DNA from: Ignavibacteria bacterium | Lineage (GTDB): Bacteria > Bacteroidota > Ignavibacteria > Tepidaquicellales > Tepidaquicellaceae | Length of the DNA stretch: 64,000 bases | Assembly: GCA_036262055.1 (NCBI GenBank) | Contig: DATAJP010000003.1 | Coordinates: 1 to 64,000, forward strand | Reading direction: 5' to 3' | In this document: positions 18,608-31,094 of the stretch, one piece after another | How positions within the stretch are numbered: position 1 is the stretch's first letter | Layout: each line of letters starts with the position of its first letter | Translations under genes and position numbers: made by a program | The notes under the pieces: model-generated | What the model saw: only the letters and a program-made list of their open reading frames with translations | What the model was told of the DNA's origin: nothing | Databases searched by the model: none

Positions 18608-20248
18608 ATGAAAACCCTGGAAAAAAACATAACTAAAAGCTTTAAAATCAAAACAAGCATCTTAATATTGCTTTTTACGGTAGCTTTCGCAAACATTGCA
18701 CTTTCACAAAGCGACCCTGACCTTGAAAGAGGTTATCAATTGCTGAATGAAGGTAACAATTCGGAAGCAGCAATAGTTTTTGAAGAATATGTGACAAGAA
18801 ATCCCGGAGAAATTAAAATCATTCTCCAGCTTGCTTACATACACAAGAATCTCGGAAACAATGGTGTTGCGAAAAAATATTTCGAGTATGTTGTGAACAA
18901 CTCACCTAATACTGATGACATTGCAGCAGCCAGAACGGAACTCGATATGATGAATTCAACCGGTTCCAATCCAACAATCAGCCGACTTGACGAAGCATAT
19001 AATCTTTTCAATGCAGGCAAGGTAAATGAAGCGGCTGTTATATTCGAAGAGCAGGTAAGAAATAATCCAAGCGATACAAAGACTATGCTTCAGCTGGGCT
19101 ATATTTACAAAAGCAAAGGTGATTATACTAAAGCTCTTGAGTATTTTAACAAAGTATACGGTGCATCATTAAAATCAGATGAATTGAAAATTGCAACAAC
19201 CGAAATAGCTGACATAAATACAATTTTAAATCCAAAGACACAGACTACTATTACGGGAACGACACCGGTTTATTCTTCAAGCATCGGAAATGATAATCTC
19301 AACAAAGCATATACATTATTAAACCAGGGCTTTAAAGATGCGGCAATTCCTTACTTTGAACAATATTTAATTTCTAATCCAAACGATACGAAAGTTCAGA
19401 TGCAGTTAGCATATTTATATTATGACGTTCAGCAGTATACACGAGCTAAAGAGAGATTCCAGTATGTTGCTAACAATTCTGCAAGTATGGAAGAAAAAAA
19501 CCAGGCAAACAGTTCTATAACAACAATAAACAATATGAGAAGCGGTTCAGGCATTCCGCAGACCGTTGATATATATTTTTATAATATTTACGATACATAT
19601 CAGAAGAATTATATATCAAACTTTCTTGGTAAATACGGATTCGGTGTAGCTAAAAATCTTAATATGGGTATTTATGTAGATGCGTTTTTGGACAGCCGTT
19701 CAACTGCGCAGAATATTCTGAATGACAGATATGTTGAGGCAGGCGGTTATGTGAGATATTCGATAACTTCTTATATGTCTTTCGAGGTCCGCGCAGGATA
19801 TGTAAGACAAATTGACCGTGAAAAGAACAGCTTTAACTTTAAACCGATTTTATCTTTTGGAAATACTTTCGGAAGTGCTCCAACATTCTTAAACCCCGGT
19901 ATAACGAAGAAAGAATATTTATACCTGCAGTTTTATGGTGCAATCTTGTATGATTACAAGTTCAGAAATATGTTTGGTCAGGGATATTTAAAAGAAGGAT
20001 TAAGGTTTATGATGGGTGGATATTCAAATTTTGAATTTTATTTAAGACAACAAGGTAATGTAGATTCACAGAATTTACCTTATAATAATTATATAGAATT
20101 TGCAGGCGGAGTTGGTTTCCAGCCTAACATAAAATATTTTCCTACTTTGTTCGCTGAGGCAACAAATAAAATTTATTTCTCACAGGAATCACAAAATACG
20201 TTCCAATTTAGAGTGGGATTTTTACTGGGATATTTCTCCCAGTTTTAA
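18608..20248 (+). CDS. nfrA: NfrA-like outer-membrane protein: TPR domain plus C-terminal barrel
   Basis: This 546-residue protein has a long signal sequence (about 1-33, 'NIALSQ'). Residues 37-310 hold three TPR blocks, each with 'A..lf.eG...eAa..FE..v..nP.d.k..lqLay' spacing and separated by low-complexity linkers. Residues 320-546 are rich in alternating aromatic strands ('EAGGYVRYSI', 'YLQFYGAILYDYKF', 'FQFRVGFLLGYFSQF'), ending in an aromatic residue as outer-membrane barrels do. This order matches NfrA, the outer-membrane channel that exports the N4-receptor polysaccharide in E. coli, although it is shorter. It lies 22 bases upstream of the NfrB-like gene and behind a sigma-54 promoter. 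The symbol rests mainly on architecture and neighbours. Confidence 0.7.
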   Translation: MKTLEKNITKSFKIKTSILILLFTVAFANIALSQSDPDLERGYQLLNEGNNSEAAIVFEEYVTRNPGEIKIILQLAYIHKNLGNNGVAKKYFEYVVNNSPNTDDIAAARTELDMMNSTGSNPTISRLDEAYNLFNAGKVNEAAVIFEEQVRNNPSDTKTMLQLGYIYKSKGDYTKALEYFNKVYGASLKSDELKIATTEIADINTILNPKTQTTITGTTPVYSSSIGNDNLNKAYTLLNQGFKDAAIPYFEQYLISNPNDTKVQMQLAYLYYDVQQYTRAKERFQYVANNSASMEEKNQANSSITTINNMRSGSGIPQTVDIYFYNIYDTYQKNYISNFLGKYGFGVAKNLNMGIYVDAFLDSRSTAQNILNDRYVEAGGYVRYSITSYMSFEVRAGYVRQIDREKNSFNFKPILSFGNTFGSAPTFLNPGITKKEYLYLQFYGAILYDYKFRNMFGQGYLKEGLRFMMGGYSNFEFYLRQQGNVDSQNLPYNNYIEFAGGVGFQPNIKYFPTLFAEATNKIYFSQESQNTFQFRVGFLLGYFSQF

Positions 20249-20270: not shown

Positions 20271-21719
20271 ATGGTTACAGAAATATTTCACGTAATTCTC
20301 TGGGTAACGGTAGTCCTTCTGGTCGTCAGCGGTATAGACGACCTTTTTATGGACATAATGTTCTGGTTCTACAGAAGAAAATACAAGAGAAACATACCGA
20401 GCTTTTCCGAAATGATTTCAAAGCCGGAAAAATCAATCGCCATTATGATTGGTGCATGGCACGAAGATAAGGTAATCGGACGAACTCTGACTATTGCTCT
20501 CAAGAAGATGCGTTATCAGAATTATAAGTTCTTTCTTGCGGTATATCCGAATGACCTTAAAACAGTAAAAGTTGTTAGAGAAATGGCAAGAAAAGACCAG
20601 CGGGTTGTTCTTTGTTTGAATCCGCAGGACGGTCCTACAACAAAAGCCGATAATCTTAACAACGCTTTTACTTGCGTGAAGGAATATGAAAAGCAATTCG
20701 GCGAGTTTGATATTATCTTAATCCATGATGCGGAAGATTTTATACATCCGCTATCACTAAAGCTTTTTAATTATCTTATTATGTATAAAGGTAATTATGC
20801 CGTTCAGGTGCCTGTTATCCCGATTAAATCGCGTTTAGGAAAGATGTTTCACAGAACCATGTGTGACGCGTTTGCGGAACTGCACACAAAAGATATGATT
20901 GTTCGCCAGACAATTGGTTCTTATATACCGTTTGCAGGAACGGGTATGGCTTTTAACAGAAAAGCATTCCATTATCTTGAGTCACAGTCTCTTGAAACAG
21001 AAAAGAAAATTGAAGCACGCAGAAAAGCTATGGGCATCAAAGGACCTGTTACCGGTTCAAACATTATGAAATATTATTCTGATGATGAACAGGAAGAAAT
21101 CAGCAAGCTAAATGAAAGTAAAGAGTTTCAGGAAGAAGACCCGTATCCGCAATATGAAGATATTCCGATTCCGGGATATGACGATCCTGAAAAAAGCAAA
21201 AACGATAAAAGCTCATCACCTGTCAGAATGATGAGTGTCCTTATCCTTGCAATGATATTCTTAGGTAGTATGTTTGTGCTGTTTGTAAATAATGCAACTA
21301 CAAGTCCTTCAAATGACAAAAATATAATTCCGGGTACTGCAGCGGTATTAAAAGGTCAGCAGGGTTCAAAACAAACCGGAAAGGTTATTAATAATCATCT
21401 TGTCAGTAATTCCAATGTTACGGCTTCATCGGGTGATATTATGAATTTCGATATTAATAATATTGCTAAAAGAAATCCTGATGTTAACTTAAACATTGTT
21501 ATTGACGAATATAAAGACGGAACGATTAGAATTCAAGAATCTGCTTTTGGAAGTATTGAGCAGGCGAACGCAAGACTTGGCGTAATAAAAAATTACGCAA
21601 AAAGTAATAAGGTACTGATTTCACAAGGAAATAATTCATATAGAATTATTATCGGTGACTTTAAAACCATTGATGAAGCTAAGACAATGGCACAGAAATT
21701 GCGAAAAACTATAAAGTGA
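20271..21719 (+). CDS. nfrB: NfrB-like glycosyltransferase, N-terminal half, fused to TM + SPOR domain
   Basis: Residues 1-235 follow E. coli NfrB closely: N-terminal membrane region with 'SGIDDLFMDIMFW', 'IMIGAWHEDKVIG' (58-70), 'VYPNDLKTVKVV' (91-102), 'GPTTKADNLN' (121-130), the catalytic DXD-type 'IHDAEDFIHP' (151-160) and 'AGTGMAFNRKAF' (222-233). The protein then leaves the family. An acidic linker (240-315), one transmembrane helix (319-341) and a SPOR domain (about 407-482, 'GDFKTIDEAKTMAQKL') follow. The missing acceptor-side motifs lie in the next gene, 16 bases downstream. Topology is consistent: catalytic half in the cytosol, SPOR in the periplasm, where such domains bind denuded septal peptidoglycan. 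It is part of a split enzyme, if functional. Confidence 0.85.
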   Translation: MVTEIFHVILWVTVVLLVVSGIDDLFMDIMFWFYRRKYKRNIPSFSEMISKPEKSIAIMIGAWHEDKVIGRTLTIALKKMRYQNYKFFLAVYPNDLKTVKVVREMARKDQRVVLCLNPQDGPTTKADNLNNAFTCVKEYEKQFGEFDIILIHDAEDFIHPLSLKLFNYLIMYKGNYAVQVPVIPIKSRLGKMFHRTMCDAFAELHTKDMIVRQTIGSYIPFAGTGMAFNRKAFHYLESQSLETEKKIEARRKAMGIKGPVTGSNIMKYYSDDEQEEISKLNESKEFQEEDPYPQYEDIPIPGYDDPEKSKNDKSSSPVRMMSVLILAMIFLGSMFVLFVNNATTSPSNDKNIIPGTAAVLKGQQGSKQTGKVINNHLVSNSNVTASSGDIMNFDINNIAKRNPDVNLNIVIDEYKDGTIRIQESAFGSIEQANARLGVIKNYAKSNKVLISQGNNSYRIIIGDFKTIDEAKTMAQKLRKTIK

Positions 21720-21735
21720 ATTTAAAAACAATAAA

Positions 21736-23628
21736 ATGAGCAGCTATCAAATTACGGACATAGAAATTGCACAGAGCAGCGTTGACTTGCTCAGGAAGCA
21801 CGTAAGGCAGCACAATGGTCATGTCCTCGCAAAGATTGACCAGGCAATAAACTGGAACGGTCTTATTGCTCCCATCGAAGATACTGTGAAAGATGCCGCG
21901 GAACTGGATAAGTCTTTTGACCTTAAGCTTTTGGTAAAGTCTCTTGTATTAAAAGAACTTTATGGATTGGGCGAGTTTCCTTTTGAGAATGAAGTTGCCG
22001 ACAGAAAAAGCTTTCAGAAGTTTTTGAATCTTGAGTATGGTGACGTTGTACCGTCAAACGAATTGCTTGATGAGTATCATGATTATTTAAAGATGGCAGG
22101 GAAGTATGATAATATGTTCGACAGGTTCTTTAAGCAATTGATAGATGCCGACATAATTCCTGAAAACGATTTATTCGTCGATGAGACAACAGTAGAAACA
22201 GAAACGGTTAAAGAAAACGTCAAAGAAAATGACTTTGATATTCCGCTTCTTTCTGAAGAAATTAACGAACCTAAGTCAAATCTTTCTGTTGAAGATATGA
22301 TTAAGGAAATTGAGGATAGAGTTAAAAACATATACGAAAAAAAATCTCCAGAAGAAAAGAAAATTTTTGAAAAAACCGGACTTGTTTTTGAAAAACAACA
22401 GGAAGAAATTGTAAAAGCACCTTCCGCTGAAAAGAAACAAAAAGTCGAAGTAAAACTAAAAGAACCGGTAAAACAAGAAGAAAAGAAACCGACTGTTGCA
22501 GGACGAGTAGAACAAACTAAAAAAGAAGCACAACAAAAATCAAAAAATATTTATGATAAACTTTCTTCCATAGATGATAAAATAAAATCTTTAAACTCAA
22601 CTGCTGAAGATACAACTTCGGATATTTCTGAAATTCAGCAGCAGCTTTCAGAACAAATTGAACAATTTGCCAAAACTGAAACAAAAGTTGAAGAGACAAC
22701 CCAACAGGTTAAACAAAGCCAGGATGACTTATACAAAAAATTATTTGAGTCATTTTATAATCAGTTAAAAGAAAATAAATTAATATCCGATACGACTGAA
22801 TTAGTAGTACCAGGACTGGAAAAAGAAAAAGTTACTGAAACCAAGATAACTGAAACTATAGAAAAGAAAGAGGAGAAAGTCGAAGAGAAGCCAATGATTT
22901 CTCCGGACTTCATTGAAGAGCAGAGAACCGTTGAATCTACAGGACAAACAGTTCCGGTTGTCATGCGTCCTAAAAAACGTGAAATTAACCTTAAGGAAAA
23001 GAAGAAATATCCGATATTTAACGATGCTAACTTAACGGAAGATTATGAGCTTGGTTTAAGATTCTATAAGCTTGGCTTTAAAACATCATTTGTAAACTTA
23101 AAGACAGACAGAGAGCACGGAAACACAAGAATTGCAACAGGTGAATACTTCCCTAATACATTCTGGGGTTCAGTAAAACAGCGTTCAAGATGGTTAGCCG
23201 GAATAGTTTTCCAGAATTGGAAAATTCACGGATGGGGCGGTTCAATGAAAACGAAATATTTCTTACTGAGAGACAGAAAATCGATTCTCAGCTTCGTCGG
23301 AACTGCGTTATCTTACTTATGTCTGATATACTTCATAGTTTACGCTGTAACACTTGCGCTGGGATACTCTAGCCCTATGCTGAAGCCGATAGTCGGAACA
23401 ACATCACCACTATGGTATCTGATGCTTGCAGCGACTTTCTTTATGGTAGTAAGGATATTCCACAGATTCGCTTTCACATATAACTGGTATGGATTCAGAT
23501 ATGCATTCTTCAGCATATTCAGAATGATAATCGATAACATAGTCAACTTATTCGCAATGATGAGAGCTGTGAAAGTTTACAGACAAACAAAAGATAAAGT
23601 AGTCTGGGATTCAACTGAGCATTACTAA
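21736..23628 (+). CDS. nfrB: NfrB-like glycosyltransferase, C-terminal half, preceded by IS5-transposase-like DUF772 domain and charged linker
   Basis: This 630-residue protein has three parts. Residues 14-150 resemble the DUF772 N-terminal region of IS5-type transposases ('HVLAKIDQAINW', 'LLVKSLVLKELYGLGEFPFENEV', 'FQKFLNLEYGDVVPSNELLDEY', 'NDLFVDETTVE'). The rest of the DDE catalytic domain is missing. Residues 155-420 are a Lys/Glu-rich linker with coiled-coil stretches. Residues 425-630 resume NfrB: 'NLTEDYELGLRF' (432-443), 'EYFPNTFWGSVKQRSRWLAGIVFQ' (from 470, with the QXXRW motif), 'RDRKSILSF' and three to four transmembrane helices, ending 'VVWDSTEHY'. In E. coli NfrB a c-di-GMP-binding MshEN domain follows this point; here it is absent. 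The protein needs the upstream half for catalysis. Confidence 0.8.
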   Translation: MSSYQITDIEIAQSSVDLLRKHVRQHNGHVLAKIDQAINWNGLIAPIEDTVKDAAELDKSFDLKLLVKSLVLKELYGLGEFPFENEVADRKSFQKFLNLEYGDVVPSNELLDEYHDYLKMAGKYDNMFDRFFKQLIDADIIPENDLFVDETTVETETVKENVKENDFDIPLLSEEINEPKSNLSVEDMIKEIEDRVKNIYEKKSPEEKKIFEKTGLVFEKQQEEIVKAPSAEKKQKVEVKLKEPVKQEEKKPTVAGRVEQTKKEAQQKSKNIYDKLSSIDDKIKSLNSTAEDTTSDISEIQQQLSEQIEQFAKTETKVEETTQQVKQSQDDLYKKLFESFYNQLKENKLISDTTELVVPGLEKEKVTETKITETIEKKEEKVEEKPMISPDFIEEQRTVESTGQTVPVVMRPKKREINLKEKKKYPIFNDANLTEDYELGLRFYKLGFKTSFVNLKTDREHGNTRIATGEYFPNTFWGSVKQRSRWLAGIVFQNWKIHGWGGSMKTKYFLLRDRKSILSFVGTALSYLCLIYFIVYAVTLALGYSSPMLKPIVGTTSPLWYLMLAATFFMVVRIFHRFAFTYNWYGFRYAFFSIFRMIIDNIVNLFAMMRAVKVYRQTKDKVVWDSTEHY

Positions 23629-23792: not shown

Positions 23793-24941
23793 ATGAAAGA
23801 AAATAACTTAAACCCTGAATCCTTCAAAAACAAAAAGATAGTTCTTATTGTTTTTGGAACACGTCCTGAAATAATAAAACTTTTTGTATTATATAGAATA
23901 CTACAAAAGTCAGATGAATTTTTTCCTGTTCTCGTGAATACATCACAACAGCAAATTTCGGGCGATATATTAAAACATCTGGGAATTACTCCTGAAGTTG
24001 TTTTAAATGAAATTAAAAACAGGTCAACCGACCTTAACCAATTTATTTCACATACATTAAATGAACTTAACTTAGCTTTCACAGATAAGTCAGTAATAAA
24101 GAAAAACGAAGTTGCCGGTGTCATCGTTCAAGGTGATACTACTTCTGCATATTGCGGCGCAATCTGGGGATTTTATAACCAGATTCCGGTATTTCATGTT
24201 GAAGCCGGTTTGAGAACTTTTGACCATTTAAATCCATTCCCTGAAGAGTTCGTGAGAGAATCAATCGGAAGGGCTGCAACAATGAATTTCTGCCCGACTA
24301 ACATCAGCTACGATAACCTTATAAGAGAGGGAATCAAGAGCAACAAATGCTATGTTGTCGGCAACACAGTTAATGATGCAATTATAACATTGATGAATGA
24401 AGGTTTAATTAAAGACAGCGCTTATGAAGGAAACTTCATTTTGAGCACATTGCACAGAAGAGAAAACTGGGGTAATGTTTCTGATTATGCGAAAATTTTA
24501 AATAAAGTTGTTCACGATAACGAAAAGGAAAAATATGTATTACACTTAATACATCCTAATCCTTTGGTAAAAAATAATTTTAACAGTGTATTTGGCGGAA
24601 AGTATCCGGAGAATCTAATTGTTCGAGAGCCTATACATGACTATTTCGAAATGCTTGGTCTGGTAAGAAAAAGCCATACAATCTTAACAGATTCCGGCGG
24701 CTTGCAGGAGGAATCACTCTTTTTCAACGTTCCATGCGGTGTGTTGAGAAAAGTAACCGAAAGACCGGAAGTTCTCGGCAAGAATGCAAAGCTTCTGCCT
24801 TTTGAGGATAATAAAGTGACTGCATTCCTTGATGAGTCTGAAGATTATAGAAATAAAAACTTTGGCAAATTTAATTACACTTATGGCTACGGCAATACAA
24901 GTGAATTGATTTACGAAGCAATGAAAAATTTTTATTCATAG
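23793..24941 (+). CDS. wecB: UDP-N-acetylglucosamine 2-epimerase (non-hydrolysing)
   Basis: WecB interconverts UDP-GlcNAc and UDP-ManNAc in the cytoplasm. The 382-residue length is normal. The conserved residues are present: 'FGTRPEIIKL' (21-30), Asp115 in 'VQGDTTSA', Glu137 in 'HVEAGLRT', Glu151 in 'NPFPEEFVRE', His221 in 'LSTLHRRENWG' and 'TDSGGLQEE'. The normally strict 'RPE' contact is in 'KVTERPE'. In E. coli this enzyme (once named NfrC) is required, with NfrA and NfrB, for the N4-receptor exopolysaccharide, so its place beside the nfr genes is meaningful. It could equally feed other ManNAc-containing envelope glycans. Confidence 0.96.
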   Translation: MKENNLNPESFKNKKIVLIVFGTRPEIIKLFVLYRILQKSDEFFPVLVNTSQQQISGDILKHLGITPEVVLNEIKNRSTDLNQFISHTLNELNLAFTDKSVIKKNEVAGVIVQGDTTSAYCGAIWGFYNQIPVFHVEAGLRTFDHLNPFPEEFVRESIGRAATMNFCPTNISYDNLIREGIKSNKCYVVGNTVNDAIITLMNEGLIKDSAYEGNFILSTLHRRENWGNVSDYAKILNKVVHDNEKEKYVLHLIHPNPLVKNNFNSVFGGKYPENLIVREPIHDYFEMLGLVRKSHTILTDSGGLQEESLFFNVPCGVLRKVTERPEVLGKNAKLLPFEDNKVTAFLDESEDYRNKNFGKFNYTYGYGNTSELIYEAMKNFYS

Positions 24942-25057: not shown

Positions 25058-25156
25058 ATGTTAAAAAGAAAAGTTATTTTATTAATTAACCATAGGAAAC
25101 ATGAAAGAACTAATTATCAAATCTCTAACCATCCTTCTCGGTATGATGCTTCTTAG
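25058..25156 (+). other. Possible leader ORF overlapping the start of the hydrolase gene
   Basis: A 32-codon ORF starts at an ATG 5 bases after AAGGAGAAACG, a stronger Shine-Dalgarno than that of the hydrolase itself (AGGAAAC before 25101). It overlaps the first 56 bases of that gene in another frame. The peptide is basic (MLKRKVILLINHRKHERTN and on). It could be a translated leader or chance. Confidence 0.25.
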
Positions 25157-27188
25157 CGTCCAATCTTCTTTTTCACAAGAAGATTTGAGAGATGCAGATC
25201 TTCCCGGCAAAGAACAAATCGAACGTGAACTTCCGGTTATTCCATATCACGGTGAGAAAATTAAGATGAAAATTCCTCACGATTTGGATTCTTATCAATA
25301 CAATCTCGTTCCGAGTGTTGTTCCAAAAGATCCGAACAGAGATTACACAGTTTTAAAACAAGATTTTCTTATTACTTTAAGAGATGGTGTAAAGATGGAT
25401 TGCTCAAAATTCTATCCAAGCGAACCGAATATTTATCTTCCTAACGGTTATCCCGTTGTCATAATGGTCCACGGCTATGCGGACAGAAAAGAAGTGCATG
25501 AGCAAATGGCGCGTGCACAAGCTGAATATAATTATGTAGTTTATACCTACAGCGTGCGTGGACAGGGTAATTCTGAAGGACTATCAAATTTAATAAGTAA
25601 AGTTGAAGCGTTGGATTTGATGGAACTTGTAAATTATGTAAAACTCGATAACGTTGGTGGTGATTCAAATAGTGTATTGATAATGGGCGGTTCACAAGGA
25701 GGAACGCTTCCTTATATGGCTTCATGCATGGGAATGAAAGTTAAAGCAATTATTTCATCTGTGACTTCACCCCAATTTGCTTCAAGCTGGATTGACAATG
25801 GAAGCATTAAAATGACTTTCTTATGGACAATTGAGTATGAGCCAACTGAGGCAAGATATACTCCATTGGTTGACAGAATGTCAGACTGGGTCTATGCATC
25901 AGGTTATAAAACTAAATTGTGGGATTCTCTTAATATTAACGTTCCGAAAGACAGAGATTTTTCCGATATAGTTTATAAGAATACAACTCCGATAATGGTT
26001 GAAAATTCATGGCAGGATTATTTCTTTAATGCGCGTCAGGGAATTGAATCTTTTCCGAATATAACTGCTCCAAAGTATGTTTACTTAGGCGCGGTAATGG
26101 GACATGGCGGCGATACATATCCGCCTGAAACAAATTGGCATATGAGTTTCTTTAATGAATTCTTCTTCCATTACTTATGGGGATATAATCAGGGATTAGA
26201 CACTCGTCCTGATTTCCACTATGCATTGACAACATTCCCGCGTCAAGACAATATGTGGAGTTATATTCACGATAGTTCTGCAGTATGGCCTCCGGTTGGA
26301 TATACAAACACAAGATATTATTTCAACTCAAGAGACAAGTTGACTACAACAAAAAATACAAGCAATACTGCGAGCAAATCTTTTTCTACCGGTGCAAAGG
26401 TTAATAATTTAGCAATGACATATTGTGTAAATGAAGAATTTACAGGAACAGAGTTTGCTTCAAAATTCGCGAAACAGGAAGTAAGCTTCTATTCACCGGT
26501 GTTAACAAGTGCAAAAAGATGGGTCGGAGCTCCTGAAATTAAATTAACATATTCATCTTCTGCTGATATTTGTCAGTTTAACTTCCAGATATATGAGCAA
26601 AGATCGAATGGTGAGATACAATTTATTAACAGAGTAAATTATACAGACAGAAATTATACTGCTAATGCAAAGAAATCTATAACCATAAAAGGTATTGGGC
26701 ATGCGCATCAGTTCCAGTCAGGAAGCAAAATTTTAGTAAAGGTTACGAATCTTGATACAAGACCTGGTGAGTCATTCTTAGGAACAAACCCGCACGTTCT
26801 TCCTATTCTTAAAAAAGGAACAAACAAAATTTTCTTCAACGAGTCATATATAGACATTCCAATGAAGAATGCAATTGGAACAGACAACATGACAACTAAT
26901 ATTCAATCAAGAGAATCAGAAGAAACAACATTATTTGACAATTCGCCGAACCCATTCAATCCTTCAACAAAGATTAAATTCTCGTTGCCTGCAGATTATA
27001 ACGGAATGGTTACATTGAAAATTTATGACATCGTCGGTAGAGAAGTAGCAACACTTGTCAACCAAAGTTTGGCAGGGGGTTTGCATGAATATAACTGGAA
27101 TGCAACAACGTTTGCATCAGGAATGTACTTCTTCAGACTTTCGACTGATAACTTTGTAGGTGTAAAGAAAATGATGTTGATTAAATAA
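25101..27188 (+). CDS. Secreted S15/CocE-type alpha/beta hydrolase with T9SS sorting domain
   Basis: This 695-residue protein has a signal peptide (1-26, 'SSFSQ'). The X-Pro dipeptidyl-peptidase/CocE-NonD catalytic domain spans about 85-390: 'VIMVHGYADRK' (oxyanion region), 'YSVRGQGNSEG' and nucleophile Ser198 in 'MGGSQGG'. A likely catalytic His is in 'GAVMGHGGDT'. The jelly-roll C-terminal domain at about 440-600 ends near 'HVLPILKKGTN'. A T9SS type A tail (about 615-695, 'NSPNPFNPST') follows. The family hydrolyses proline peptides or esters; the substrate here is unknown. It is a paralogue of the convergent gene at 27454-29046, which has no T9SS tail. Confidence 0.85.
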   Translation: MKELIIKSLTILLGMMLLSVQSSFSQEDLRDADLPGKEQIERELPVIPYHGEKIKMKIPHDLDSYQYNLVPSVVPKDPNRDYTVLKQDFLITLRDGVKMDCSKFYPSEPNIYLPNGYPVVIMVHGYADRKEVHEQMARAQAEYNYVVYTYSVRGQGNSEGLSNLISKVEALDLMELVNYVKLDNVGGDSNSVLIMGGSQGGTLPYMASCMGMKVKAIISSVTSPQFASSWIDNGSIKMTFLWTIEYEPTEARYTPLVDRMSDWVYASGYKTKLWDSLNINVPKDRDFSDIVYKNTTPIMVENSWQDYFFNARQGIESFPNITAPKYVYLGAVMGHGGDTYPPETNWHMSFFNEFFFHYLWGYNQGLDTRPDFHYALTTFPRQDNMWSYIHDSSAVWPPVGYTNTRYYFNSRDKLTTTKNTSNTASKSFSTGAKVNNLAMTYCVNEEFTGTEFASKFAKQEVSFYSPVLTSAKRWVGAPEIKLTYSSSADICQFNFQIYEQRSNGEIQFINRVNYTDRNYTANAKKSITIKGIGHAHQFQSGSKILVKVTNLDTRPGESFLGTNPHVLPILKKGTNKIFFNESYIDIPMKNAIGTDNMTTNIQSRESEETTLFDNSPNPFNPSTKIKFSLPADYNGMVTLKIYDIVGREVATLVNQSLAGGLHEYNWNATTFASGMYFFRLSTDNFVGVKKMMLIK

Positions 27189-27267
27189 ATGAGTATGGTT
27201 CACCCTGTTAAAGATTAACGGTAAACCAAAAATGTGGAATAACTTTTCAGGGTGGTTATTCCAATCC

Positions 27268-27302
27268 AAGGGGGAGGGTTAGCAATAACCGCCCCTTTTT
27301 TT
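27268..27302 (+). terminator. Rho-independent terminator
   Basis: AAGGGGGAGGGTTA / TAACCGCCCCTT with loop GCAA, then a run of T. It closes the T9SS hydrolase gene. Confidence 0.9.
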
Positions 27303-27388
27303 ATTTCCGTAAACCAAGAATTACTCGTAAAGACGCAAAATCTTGCGTTTCTTTTACCCCTTTTTAAAAAAGATTTATAGTTTGGTTG

Positions 27389-27412
27389 GTTGTTGGTGAA
27401 AACACCAACAAC
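27389..27412. repeat. Perfect 10-base stem-loop (GTTGTTGGTG)
   Basis: GTTGTTGGTG and CACCAACAAC flank an AAAA loop. Another stem, ACGCAA / TTGCGT, lies nearby (about 27341-27356). Both are in the spacer between the convergent hydrolase genes and look like small dispersed palindromes. The stem could help end the minus-strand transcript. Confidence 0.65.
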
Positions 27413-27453
27413 GGCAGAAAATGAATTTTGTGTTTTTGTGTTACTAAAAAATT

Positions 27454-29046
27454 TTACTCTAGAATAGGTAACTCTATAAAGCTTCCGTTTTTGCCTCCGG
27501 TATAAATAATGCCGGCATTGCGGTTTAAGACCGGCAGAACGTAAGGGTTAGTGCGAAGTTCGGAATCATCATTCCTTGTATCTAAATTTGTTATCACAAG
27601 TCGTATCCTGCTGCCTTTGTGAAATGTATGCGCTACGGCATTGCCTTCAATTTCTTTGCGGATTTCTTTATCGGATTTGTTATTCCAGTTAGTATAGTTT
27701 ATACTTGAAACAAAATGAACATCGTTGAATTCATTAACTTCCCAAATCTGGATGTTTATCTGATAAACTTGAGATGTATATTTAAGGTTTAAAGTTATTT
27801 CCGGTATTCCAATTACATTGTAATTATAAGTTAACGGGGAAGAATCCATAATTATAACTTGCTTCCTGAACTTGGAATTAAAGTAATTTCCGGTAAATTC
27901 ACTGTTAATAGCTTCACGCATTGTCAAATTCTCATCTGCGTCATTTAACAGAAGAACTGAATCTTTATCATAGTTTTCATACTGCTCTAATTTGGTATTC
28001 CATAAAAAAAATTTTATTTTTTTATTATTTGTAAAAGGTGAATAATTACTGCTGAAGCGGTAGTATGTCCAGCTGTTTTCAAAAATCGGATACCCACCGA
28101 ATGAATAAGTATATTTTGGAGTATCGGCGACTCCATTGTTTTCACTGAATAACCAGTAACGGATCCATTTGCTTATCATTTCATTATGATACTCGGTCTC
28201 TGATAAATTTGTATCCGAACTGTGACCTTTTATTGCGCCGAAATAAAATTTATTGTATTTGTTGCTGCTGCTTAAAGTTTTTATTATACCATTGGAATTA
28301 AAATATACATCTTTCCATGAATTTGAAAACATTATCGGGTTCTGGTTATTAATAACTTCCTTCGAAAAATCCCTGTTTTCGAGAAATTCTTCGAGAAAAT
28401 CCCGAACATCATCAGGGTCATTATCTAAAATAATTTTTCTGAACTCCTGAACGTCATCATCATAACGCACAACATTATCACTGTAGCTTAATGACCATAG
28501 TAAGCTCATTCTAATGCTTCCGTTCTGAATCCAGCTTGATGCAAAAGTCGGAGAACCTAAATCTGAGATAATGCATCTAACTTTCATTCCATAACAACTC
28601 GCCATAAACGGGATTATTCCTCCCTGAGACGAACCGGTTATTGCAACATTATCATCGCTTGCGTCCTTTCGCTTTTTTATTGCGGCGACAAGTTCCTGAA
28701 GGTCCTCCATCTCGACACGGCTTATCAGATGTGATTCGCCTTTTGAACGACCCTGACCACGCATTGAATAAATAAAAGTTAAATACCCGAATGCTGCCTG
28801 CGATCTTGCAAGTTCTGCAACATCTCGTTTAGATTTTCCGAAACCGTGACAGTAAATTATTACAGGCCAGCCGTTTGCAGGAACATCAGCAACAGGTTTA
28901 TATATTGAGCAGTCAAGCTTAACTCCGTCACTTAATTCATAAAAAAATTCGGTTTCTTTGACTTCATATAAATCTCCAAATCCATATGCATTAGAAGTAG
29001 AAATTATGAAAGACATTGCAATCAAAAAAACCAGGCACAATTTCAT
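27454..29046 (-). CDS. S15/CocE-type alpha/beta hydrolase, no T9SS tail
   Basis: The longest frame opens at 29190, but the conserved signal peptide (MKLCLVFLIAMSF, cleavage near 'SNA') begins at 29046. That start also removes the overlap with the divergent ABC-F gene. The 530-residue product has 'VIIYCHGFGKSK', 'YSMRGQGRSKG', nucleophile Ser140 in 'ITGSSQGG', 'GAIKGHSSDT' for the catalytic His, and a C-terminal jelly-roll ending 'YVLPVLNRNAG'. It is closely parallel to the 25101 protein but stops where that protein's sorting tail begins. It is therefore probably periplasmic or released rather than T9SS-exported. The substrate is unknown. Confidence 0.85.
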   Translation of the reverse strand: MKLCLVFLIAMSFIISTSNAYGFGDLYEVKETEFFYELSDGVKLDCSIYKPVADVPANGWPVIIYCHGFGKSKRDVAELARSQAAFGYLTFIYSMRGQGRSKGESHLISRVEMEDLQELVAAIKKRKDASDDNVAITGSSQGGIIPFMASCYGMKVRCIISDLGSPTFASSWIQNGSIRMSLLWSLSYSDNVVRYDDDVQEFRKIILDNDPDDVRDFLEEFLENRDFSKEVINNQNPIMFSNSWKDVYFNSNGIIKTLSSSNKYNKFYFGAIKGHSSDTNLSETEYHNEMISKWIRYWLFSENNGVADTPKYTYSFGGYPIFENSWTYYRFSSNYSPFTNNKKIKFFLWNTKLEQYENYDKDSVLLLNDADENLTMREAINSEFTGNYFNSKFRKQVIIMDSSPLTYNYNVIGIPEITLNLKYTSQVYQINIQIWEVNEFNDVHFVSSINYTNWNNKSDKEIRKEIEGNAVAHTFHKGSRIRLVITNLDTRNDDSELRTNPYVLPVLNRNAGIIYTGGKNGSFIELPILE

Positions 29047-29150
29047 AATTATATCAGTTAAATAGAGATATAAAATATTTATATTATACATATAAATAAA
29101 CTTATTAATGCATCTTTTTGTTAAAAATTGAGTTTGAGAGCAAATAAATT

Positions 29151-31094
29151 TTGATTTCAGCAAATAACATAACGGTAAATTTCGGTGCAAGAAATCTTTT
29201 CAAAAATGTTTCATTTCAGATAAGCGGAAGAGACAGAATCGGACTTGTCGGTTCAAATGGTGCAGGCAAATCGACTTTGCTGAAAATTCTTATTAATGAA
29301 TTCCAGCCGGAGGAAGGTGTTGTAAGTTTTTCCAAGCATACAACATTCGGATATTTGCCCCAGGAAGGTCTGACTTATGAAGGAAAAACTTTATATGATG
29401 AAGTTTATTCTTCGGTTGATGATATAAATAATATTCAGAATGAAATTGCAGACATTGAAAGTGAAATGGAAACGTTCACCGACCATTCATCCGAACAATT
29501 TCTGGATTTAATCGAGAACTATACTGAACTTCAGCAAAAGTTTAATGACCTCGACGGATTTAAACTAAAATCAAAGATTGAAAAAATCCTCATAGGGCTT
29601 GGATTTAAAAATGATGATTTTAACAGATTAACCGACGAGTTCAGCGGCGGATGGCAAATGAGAATTGCGATTGCAAAGCTTCTTCTTAAAAATCCTTCTG
29701 TGATTTTACTTGACGAACCAACAAACCATCTTGATATCGAGTCACTAATCTGGTTTGAAAATTATTTAAAGAATTATAACGGCGCTATTTTGCTTATTTC
29801 GCATGATAAAAATTTTCTTGACAACATTACAGATAAGACAATTGAGATAAGCATGGGTAAAGTTACGTTATATTCAGGTAATTATTCTTTTTATGTAAAA
29901 GAAAAAGAAGAGAGAAAGACTCTTCTTGAAAATCAGAAGAAAAATCAGGATAAATATTTAAAACAGCAGGAAAAATTTATCGAGAGATTCAGATATAAGG
30001 CGACAAAGGCGAAAGCAGTGCAAAGCCGGATTAAACTTGTTGAAAAGCTTGACATAATCGAGCTTGAGGATGAAGAAAACAGCATCAAGATAAAATTTCC
30101 TCCGGCGACACATTCAGGAAAAATTTCTCTTGAAATAGAAAACTTATATAAAACATACGACGATAAAAAATATATTCTCGAAGATATAAACCTAATACTT
30201 GAACGCGGTGAAAAAATTGCGCTTGTTGGTGTGAACGGAGCAGGGAAGTCAACTCTTGCAAGAATGATTGCAGGATTTGAGAGCATATCAAAAGGTAAAA
30301 TAAAACTCGGACATCTTGTTGATATTAAATATTACTCACAGCATCAGTCAGATGAACTTGACCCCGACAAAACAGTCCTTGAAGTAATGGAAGAATGCGC
30401 AAACGGTGAAATTGCCAAAAATCTCCGGAACATTCTCGGGAGTTTTTTGTTTAGAGGGGATGATGTATTTAAGCTTGTGAAAGTCTTGTCAGGCGGAGAA
30501 AAATCACGACTTGCGCTTGCAAAAATGCTTATTGAGCCTTCAAATTTTTTGATTCTTGATGAGCCGACAAATCATTTGGATATGCGTTCAAAAGATGTTC
30601 TTATGGAAGCGCTCAATGCATATGAGGGAACAGTGCTTGTTGTTTCGCACGACAGATATTTTTTGGATGGAATTATTAATAAGGTAATCGAGGTTAAAGA
30701 TAAAAAGATTAAAATATATTATGGCAATTCTTCGGATTATTTAAAAGCAAAAGATAGAGAATCTTCTCCGGCTAAAAAAGAAATCGAAGAAAAATCTTCG
30801 CTGAAAAATTCATTGCCGGTAAAAAATACCTATTCGGCAAAGAAGGAAATTAAGAAAAAAATTACTCCTATAAGGAAAAAAATCTCCGAGCTTGAACTTG
30901 AAATGACCGCTCTTGAAAAACGTTTGAAAGAAATTGAATCAATTATGTCAGCGCAGGATTTTTTTAAAAAAACCGATGATATAAAAAGTATTACCGGAGA
31001 ATACAATTCACTTAAAGAAAGAATTTCTGTAAATTATTCTCAGTGGGAAAAAGAGACTGAAAAATTAACCGAATTAGAAACATTATTAACTTAA
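29151..31094 (+). CDS. ABC-F family ATP-binding protein
   Basis: This 647-residue soluble protein starts at TTG; no ATG fits. It has two ABC domains: Walker A 'GSNGAGKSTLLKIL', signature 'FSGGWQMRIAIAKLLL' and 'LLDEPTNHLD', then 'GVNGAGKSTLARMI', 'LSGGEKSRLALAKML' and 'ILDEPTNHLD'. The inter-domain linker (about 240-320) is highly basic ('ERFRYKATKAKAVQSR'). The C-terminal 110 residues form a Lys/Glu coiled coil, as in Uup/YheS/EttA-type proteins. ABC-F proteins act on ribosomes as translation or quality-control factors and lack membrane domains. The exact subfamily cannot be fixed by eye. Confidence 0.93.
   Translation: MISANNITVNFGARNLFKNVSFQISGRDRIGLVGSNGAGKSTLLKILINEFQPEEGVVSFSKHTTFGYLPQEGLTYEGKTLYDEVYSSVDDINNIQNEIADIESEMETFTDHSSEQFLDLIENYTELQQKFNDLDGFKLKSKIEKILIGLGFKNDDFNRLTDEFSGGWQMRIAIAKLLLKNPSVILLDEPTNHLDIESLIWFENYLKNYNGAILLISHDKNFLDNITDKTIEISMGKVTLYSGNYSFYVKEKEERKTLLENQKKNQDKYLKQQEKFIERFRYKATKAKAVQSRIKLVEKLDIIELEDEENSIKIKFPPATHSGKISLEIENLYKTYDDKKYILEDINLILERGEKIALVGVNGAGKSTLARMIAGFESISKGKIKLGHLVDIKYYSQHQSDELDPDKTVLEVMEECANGEIAKNLRNILGSFLFRGDDVFKLVKVLSGGEKSRLALAKMLIEPSNFLILDEPTNHLDMRSKDVLMEALNAYEGTVLVVSHDRYFLDGIINKVIEVKDKKIKIYYGNSSDYLKAKDRESSPAKKEIEEKSSLKNSLPVKNTYSAKKEIKKKITPIRKKISELELEMTALEKRLKEIESIMSAQDFFKKTDDIKSITGEYNSLKERISVNYSQWEKETEKLTELETLLT

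Follow-up and report, generated by a model that had tools for sequence, protein, structure and literature searches.

In the window, which is the whole stretch of 64,000 nucleotides of Ignavibacteria DNA analysed here, the catalytic domain of an NfrB-type glycosyltransferase is carried by two adjacent genes, A and B. We show that this pair is a conserved, co-evolving split variant of the NfrB type. It is likely that the two proteins are the subunits of one NfrB-type membrane polysaccharide synthase, and their physical assembly and joint activity are inferred.

Both genes are clean open reading frames, and the reading frame changes between them (Table 1). Neither protein carries the features of an NfrB-type GT2 enzyme (profile coverage, DxD, TED, QxxRW) alone; these are present only jointly. 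A and B each cover their own part of the NCBIfam NfrB profile NF008411 (723 positions), and in NF011305 the two parts are contiguous, so that together they span the NfrB-type catalytic domain with no residues lost. The NCBIfam whole-protein cut-offs are reached by neither protein alone, nor by the summed scores. A holds the DxD-type motif HDAEDF, with D153, E155 and D156, and GTGMAFNRKAF; B holds NLTEDYELG, with the TED residues T434-E435-D436, and QRSRW, with Q482, R485 and W486. The DxD-type, TED and Q..RW residues are invariant across all aligned family members. Between the catalytic halves lie about 245 codons of A tail, the 16 intergenic bases and about 425 codons of B head. The first-pass annotation, which was made from the letters and open reading frames only, had the NfrB part of the first gene reaching HDAED and GTGMAFNRKAF and that of the second resuming at NLTEDYELG before QRSRW, with large inserts and undamaged frames between them, and all of this held. 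The rule that NfrB-type synthases have their catalytic domain on a single polypeptide is thus not met, the two-frame arrangement being conserved in 14 genomes. There is no second match to A or B elsewhere in the source genome; the only two NF011305 matches are the split halves themselves, and therefore no intact backup copy exists.

Table 1. Features of the split synthase locus, in positions of the window
Feature	Positions	Strand	Basis or remark
NfrA-like outer-membrane exporter, 546 aa: TPR repeats and probable C-terminal beta-barrel	18608..20248	+	TPR Pfam matches; barrel inferred from length and context
Gene A, 482 aa	20271..21719	+	
Gene A residues 1-240: N-terminal membrane helix and N-terminal (donor-side) GT2 half, KADNLN and HDAEDF	20271..20990	+	PF13641 E=5.8e-28; NF008411 9-247; NF011305 4-235
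Gene A tail, residues 241-482: cytosolic linker of ~80 residues, TM helix (21231-21287), predicted periplasmic SPOR domain (21519-21704)	20991..21716	+	Hydropathy, positive-inside rule, PF05036
Intergenic gap between A and B	21720..21735	+	16 bases; frame changes between A and B
Gene B, 630 aa	21736..23628	+	
Gene B residues 1-156: homologue of IS5-family transposase N-terminus	21736..22203	+	DUF772, NF033581
Gene B residues 157-424: charged, helical/coiled, poorly conserved cytosolic linker	22204..23007	+	Alignment; low pLDDT in model
Gene B residues 425-630: C-terminal (acceptor-side) GT2 half, TED and QRSRW, channel helices	23008..23625	+	PF13632 E=2.5e-12; NF008411 252-470; NF011305 235-453
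WecB-like non-hydrolysing UDP-GlcNAc 2-epimerase	23793..24941	+	TIGR00236 wecB 245 bits, cut-off 210

The split is widely conserved. Among 29 genomes of the Ignavibacteriales family, A and B are present without an intact copy in 14, belonging to 8 genera; in two more, both of genus g16, the gene is intact and about 45 residues longer at the split point, and the other 13 have neither form. All 15 genomes searched in the related family f2 carry a one-frame gene of about 444 aa. A separate collection scan covered 80 loci of NfrB relatives, of which 21 are split (the 20 best matches and L129). At 58 of the other 59 loci, a single open reading frame contains both halves and has 3-17 residues at the site; the last locus is undecidable, as its contig ends too early. 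Named carriers of the split include the Ignavibacteria MAGs UBA6667, UTCHB1, BS750m-G4 and STA_27. The split position is identical in all 23 pairs, and A and B are adjacent and in order wherever both lie on one contig. In a tree of the joined cores, the 23 split pairs from the 14 genomes and 8 genera form one clade, consistent with one change; the support for monophyly is moderate, at 83/88 for the joined cores and 59 in the tree of A only. The insertion in the intact g16 synthases (L087 and L088, in G023 and G025) lies exactly at the split point, and it may represent an intermediate stage, or this loop may have been used independently. Further splits at similar places in B copies of G004 (L110:2874 and L103:10582) were rejected as artefacts, each break being an NN scaffold gap.

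Several genomes contain two or three split pairs, in which the A copies and the B copies fall into the same groups; the pair has therefore been duplicated as a unit. A-core and B-core distances are correlated at r = 0.92, a value reached in none of 2000 label shuffles, and paralogous pairs stay paired. One genome, G026, carries three split pairs (L070, L071/L072 and L068/L069). The b-type pairs, found in G026 and also in G007, G008, G019 and G027, sit apart from the nfrA-like and wecB-like genes, and that of G019 adjoins a GT1-type glycosyltransferase gene.

Purifying selection acts strongly on both core halves. Among the pairs that allowed an estimate, dN/dS is 0.008-0.035 for the A core, 0.014-0.034 for the B core and 0.06-0.23 for the added parts of A and B; between the window and G003, it is 0.035, 0.034 and, for the whole N-terminal extension of B, 0.12. 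The dS values are high and near saturation, which makes the ratios rough, but decay is ruled out despite this.

The fold of the two halves was examined by structure prediction. No sequence of a solved structure matches the family at E 0.01. The AlphaFold input was the G011 read-through of A, stop and B, whose reading frames are in one frame; this fused single chain is a stand-in for the complex and not the two chains of the window. Alignments mixing full B rows with A were excluded, as they misplaced the B N-terminus onto A. With intact relatives in the alignment, pLDDT was about 90 in both cores and low in the B linker. In VIA alignments to this model, 335 of 346 residues of PcManGT (6yv7; Z 27.5, rmsd 3.9) were matched, as were 340-410 residues of hyaluronan synthases (Z ~24), BcsA (Z ~24) and plant CesA, in each case across both halves. 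A control without the intact rows had low confidence (mean pLDDT 54), and the synthases still aligned to it across both halves, loosely (Z 9-10, rmsd ~6). The model thus predicts that the present-day A and B halves fit one synthase fold; this is not independent of homology and gives no proof that the halves meet.

Each half has gained its own added parts. In A, one added hydrophobic helix (residues 321-339), positive on its N side, is followed by a SPOR domain at residues 417-478 (PF05036 34.8 bits, cut-off 21), whose structure in the control model matches the SPOR domain of RlpA (6i05; Z 8.1, rmsd 1.5, 67 residues). The helix lies about 60-85 residues past the GT half in all A proteins except that of G002 and one copy cut by a scaffold gap. 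With 2-6 Lys/Arg before it and 0-1 after it, the tail of A is predicted to be periplasmic; the profile match, the topology and the RlpA likeness thus agree with a layout of a periplasmic SPOR domain after a membrane helix. Our own profile recognises SPOR in 15 of 22 A proteins, and the domain is missing in the b-paralogues and in G002, where the A partner has neither helix nor SPOR. A lone helix in the middle of a single chain would flip the second GT half to the wrong side of the membrane; we infer that the split itself permits this architecture of A.

The head of B is homologous to the N-terminal region of IS5-family transposases over about 155 residues. DUF772, a transposase N-terminal domain, is found at residues 59-130, just above cut-off; the N-terminus matches NF033581 (IS5 transposase) at E=1.5e-8 and the transposase frame L175:1402-1899 of G005 with 26% identity over 133 aa (E=1e-14). 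The aligned region contains the DR-SF-KFL-L-GD-VP signature and stops near the first catalytic Asp. No DDE catalytic domain was found in B; unlike in the transposases, a coiled linker and the glycosyltransferase half follow instead, and B is not an active transposase. The linker can be greatly expanded, as in the 924-aa B homologue of G002 (L065:8117-10891), where it is acidic and contains repeats like EIDxRLKxLYEKP. By profile, the transposase-like domain is recognised in 10 split pairs, which represent both deep branches of the split clade: it is present in G002, in the group of G000, G003, G017 and G011, and in genera g9 and g5, and it is absent from genera g6 and g8 and from the b-paralogues. 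Its place on the deepest branches means that the first split pair probably already had it, with at least two later losses. As SPOR and the transposase-like domain are each missing in some split members, neither is needed for the split enzyme and their roles are not general.

We consider two possibilities for the origin of the split. First, an IS5-type element inserted into the loop, and the start of its transposase now starts the C-terminal half; the evidence tips modestly towards this. Second, the gene underwent an ordinary fission, and B acquired the transposase-like domain at its N-terminus only afterwards, which we hold to be slightly the less probable course. In favour of later recruitment, g6, g8 and the b-paralogues lack the domain, the tail of A contains no IS remnant, and the seemingly unrelated insertion of about 45 residues in g16 indicates that the loop took insertions in another lineage. 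Against it, the domain sits on the deepest branches of the split clade (G002, G000/G003/G017/G011 and g9/g5) and begins at the start codon of B.

The neighbouring genes resemble those of a known pathway. In E. coli, NfrB, NfrA and WecB are proposed to make a ManNAc-containing exopolysaccharide, the NGR receptor of phage N4 (PMC8669469, PMC8669472). Here, the protein encoded upstream of A gives weak matches, at the level of TPR repeats, to BcsC, PgaA and the NfrA phage-receptor model. In most split loci an nfrA-like gene immediately precedes A, and one also lies upstream of the intact gene in f2 and g16. Most of these loci also have a wecB-like gene after B or after the intact gene, with an order conserved in many split and intact relatives; the linkage of a WecB-type epimerase to the synthase thus rests on a TIGR00236 score above cut-off and on conserved order. 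The epimerase is expected to supply UDP-ManNAc, and from it and the gene order we infer that the probable product of the nfrA-like, split nfrB and wecB-like locus is a ManNAc-containing exopolysaccharide. Beside the locus, at 25101-29190 of the window, are two related, convergent genes for S15/CocE-like alpha/beta hydrolases, one with a T9SS sorting tail; a relative follows the split locus in several genomes.

E. coli NfrB is activated by c-di-GMP via a C-terminal MshEN domain (PMC8669469, PMC8669472), which is present in 1,705 of 1,841 homologues (PMC8669469). A profile search found no MshEN in A, in B or in the whole source genome (assembly ~95% complete), and GGDEF is likewise absent from this ~95% complete assembly. 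Hidden MshEN or c-di-GMP signalling was ruled out on these grounds, and control must therefore differ from that of E. coli NfrB. The added domains of A and B are possible candidates for a replacement control; no evidence shows such a role.

We propose the following mechanism. In an ancestor, an IS5-family element would have inserted into the loop between the donor-side (DxD) and acceptor-side (TED, QxxRW) segments, cutting the GT-A domain there, and the 5' end of the transposase would have given the C-terminal half its new start. The split would free two chain ends at a loop which in all relatives lies within the chain. The freed end of A would carry the single membrane helix and the periplasmic SPOR domain, probably tying the synthase to the cell wall or division site; this targeting and any glycan binding are inferred. 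The freed end of B would carry the transposase-derived cytosolic domain and the helical linker, possibly as an arm for regulation or tethering that stands in for the absent c-di-GMP (MshEN) control. The two halves probably associate non-covalently in the inner membrane, rebuilding one active site, which would polymerise UDP-ManNAc from the adjacent WecB-like epimerase; the polymer would exit via the adjacent NfrA-like porin. In its boldest form, this reading holds that an IS5-type insertion cut the GT-A domain of a processive synthase into an obligate two-subunit enzyme, whose donor half has a wall-targeting SPOR domain and whose acceptor half has a domesticated transposase fragment replacing c-di-GMP control, and that this arrangement became fixed in many genera, with the two genes duplicated together; we would neither favour nor discount it as a whole.

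The first-pass annotation had suggested a possible two-subunit processive GT2 synthase, which conservation, dN/dS and the model now support, with assembly and activity remaining inferred. It named three results that would refute this, and none was obtained: a split confined to this assembly while relatives are intact (14 genomes in 8 genera have the split), dN/dS near 1 in either half (it is far below 1 in both), and halves that do not form one GT-A domain (one fold was modelled, confidently only with intact relatives). Its topology, with SPOR in the periplasm and the added domain of B in the cytosol, agrees with hydropathy and the positive-inside rule. As to its question of whether both extra domains are conserved, each is absent in some split members. 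It overlooked the IS5-family homology of the B head, the NfrA-like and WecB-like neighbours, the absence of GGDEF and MshEN, and the dispensability of both added domains.

Three other explanations were weighed against the two-subunit synthase. First, the halves may no longer be one enzyme, A being, for example, a SPOR-bearing sugar-nucleotide sensor and B a separate membrane protein. Physical assembly has not been demonstrated, the model is confident only with intact relatives in the alignment, and each half gained its own extra domains. However, complementary catalytic residues are kept in both halves, which evolve at an equal rate, the pairs were duplicated and retained together, and the exporter and epimerase gene order is that of the intact synthase; this explanation is very unlikely. 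Second, the genes may be pseudogene fragments of an nfrB decayed after an insertion, or an assembly error, as an IS-like domain sits at the break and two G004 copies do have breaks, though at scaffold gaps. This is practically excluded by the occurrence of the split at one identical point in 14 genomes from 8 genera, each assembled separately, the strong purifying selection on both cores, the invariant catalytic residues and the duplication as pairs. Third, that programmed frameshifting, stop read-through or protein trans-splicing joins the halves into one chain can be all but dismissed: both reading frames are in one frame in G011, G008, G020 and G007b, but the A/B spacing (6-60 bases) and frame relation vary among relatives, so there is no programmed frameshift, domain profile searches found no intein or other splicing domain in A or B, and a single membrane helix and SPOR in mid-chain would place the second GT half on the wrong side.

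The two-subunit reading, if correct, offers an enzyme naturally in two pieces, with which donor binding, acceptor handling and translocation can be studied apart, and a means to test synthase localisation through SPOR or switching without c-di-GMP. A mobile element also seems to have broken a catalytic fold here, the break then becoming a stable, duplicated innovation. In the literature searched, which left out most subscription journals, no split GT2/GT-A synthase is described, and no description was found of a split NfrB-type system in Ignavibacteria.

Compared with known systems, A and B are closest in kind to E. coli NfrB (NF008411; with NfrA and WecB/NfrC; PMC8669469, PMC8669472), sharing the GT2 domain over its full length with DxD, TED and QxxRW, a WecB-type epimerase and, probably, a TPR partner in the outer membrane. 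They differ in that the catalytic domain is on two polypeptides, MshEN is missing, the genome has no GGDEF, and a membrane helix with SPOR and a transposase-derived domain have been gained. The intact relatives in f2 (444 aa) and g16 (485 aa) share about 55-63% core identity, the same neighbours and probably the same product, but are single chains, in which the split point is occupied by 3-17 residues (f2 and others) or by about 45 (g16). The eukaryotic heterodimeric UDP-GlcNAc transferase ALG13/ALG14 (PMC9527342) is likewise a glycosyltransferase made of two polypeptides. That enzyme is a non-processive GT-B cut between two natural domains, with one soluble subunit; here, the cut runs through the fold of a GT-A, and each half is a membrane protein. 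PgaC/PgaD and BcsA/BcsB are processive GT2 synthases with a second subunit, and in these the catalytic domain is complete in one chain, whereas that of A and B is divided between chains. To our knowledge, no earlier processive GT-A synthase has an active site shared by two polypeptides cut inside the fold; if our reading is true, A and B would be the first.
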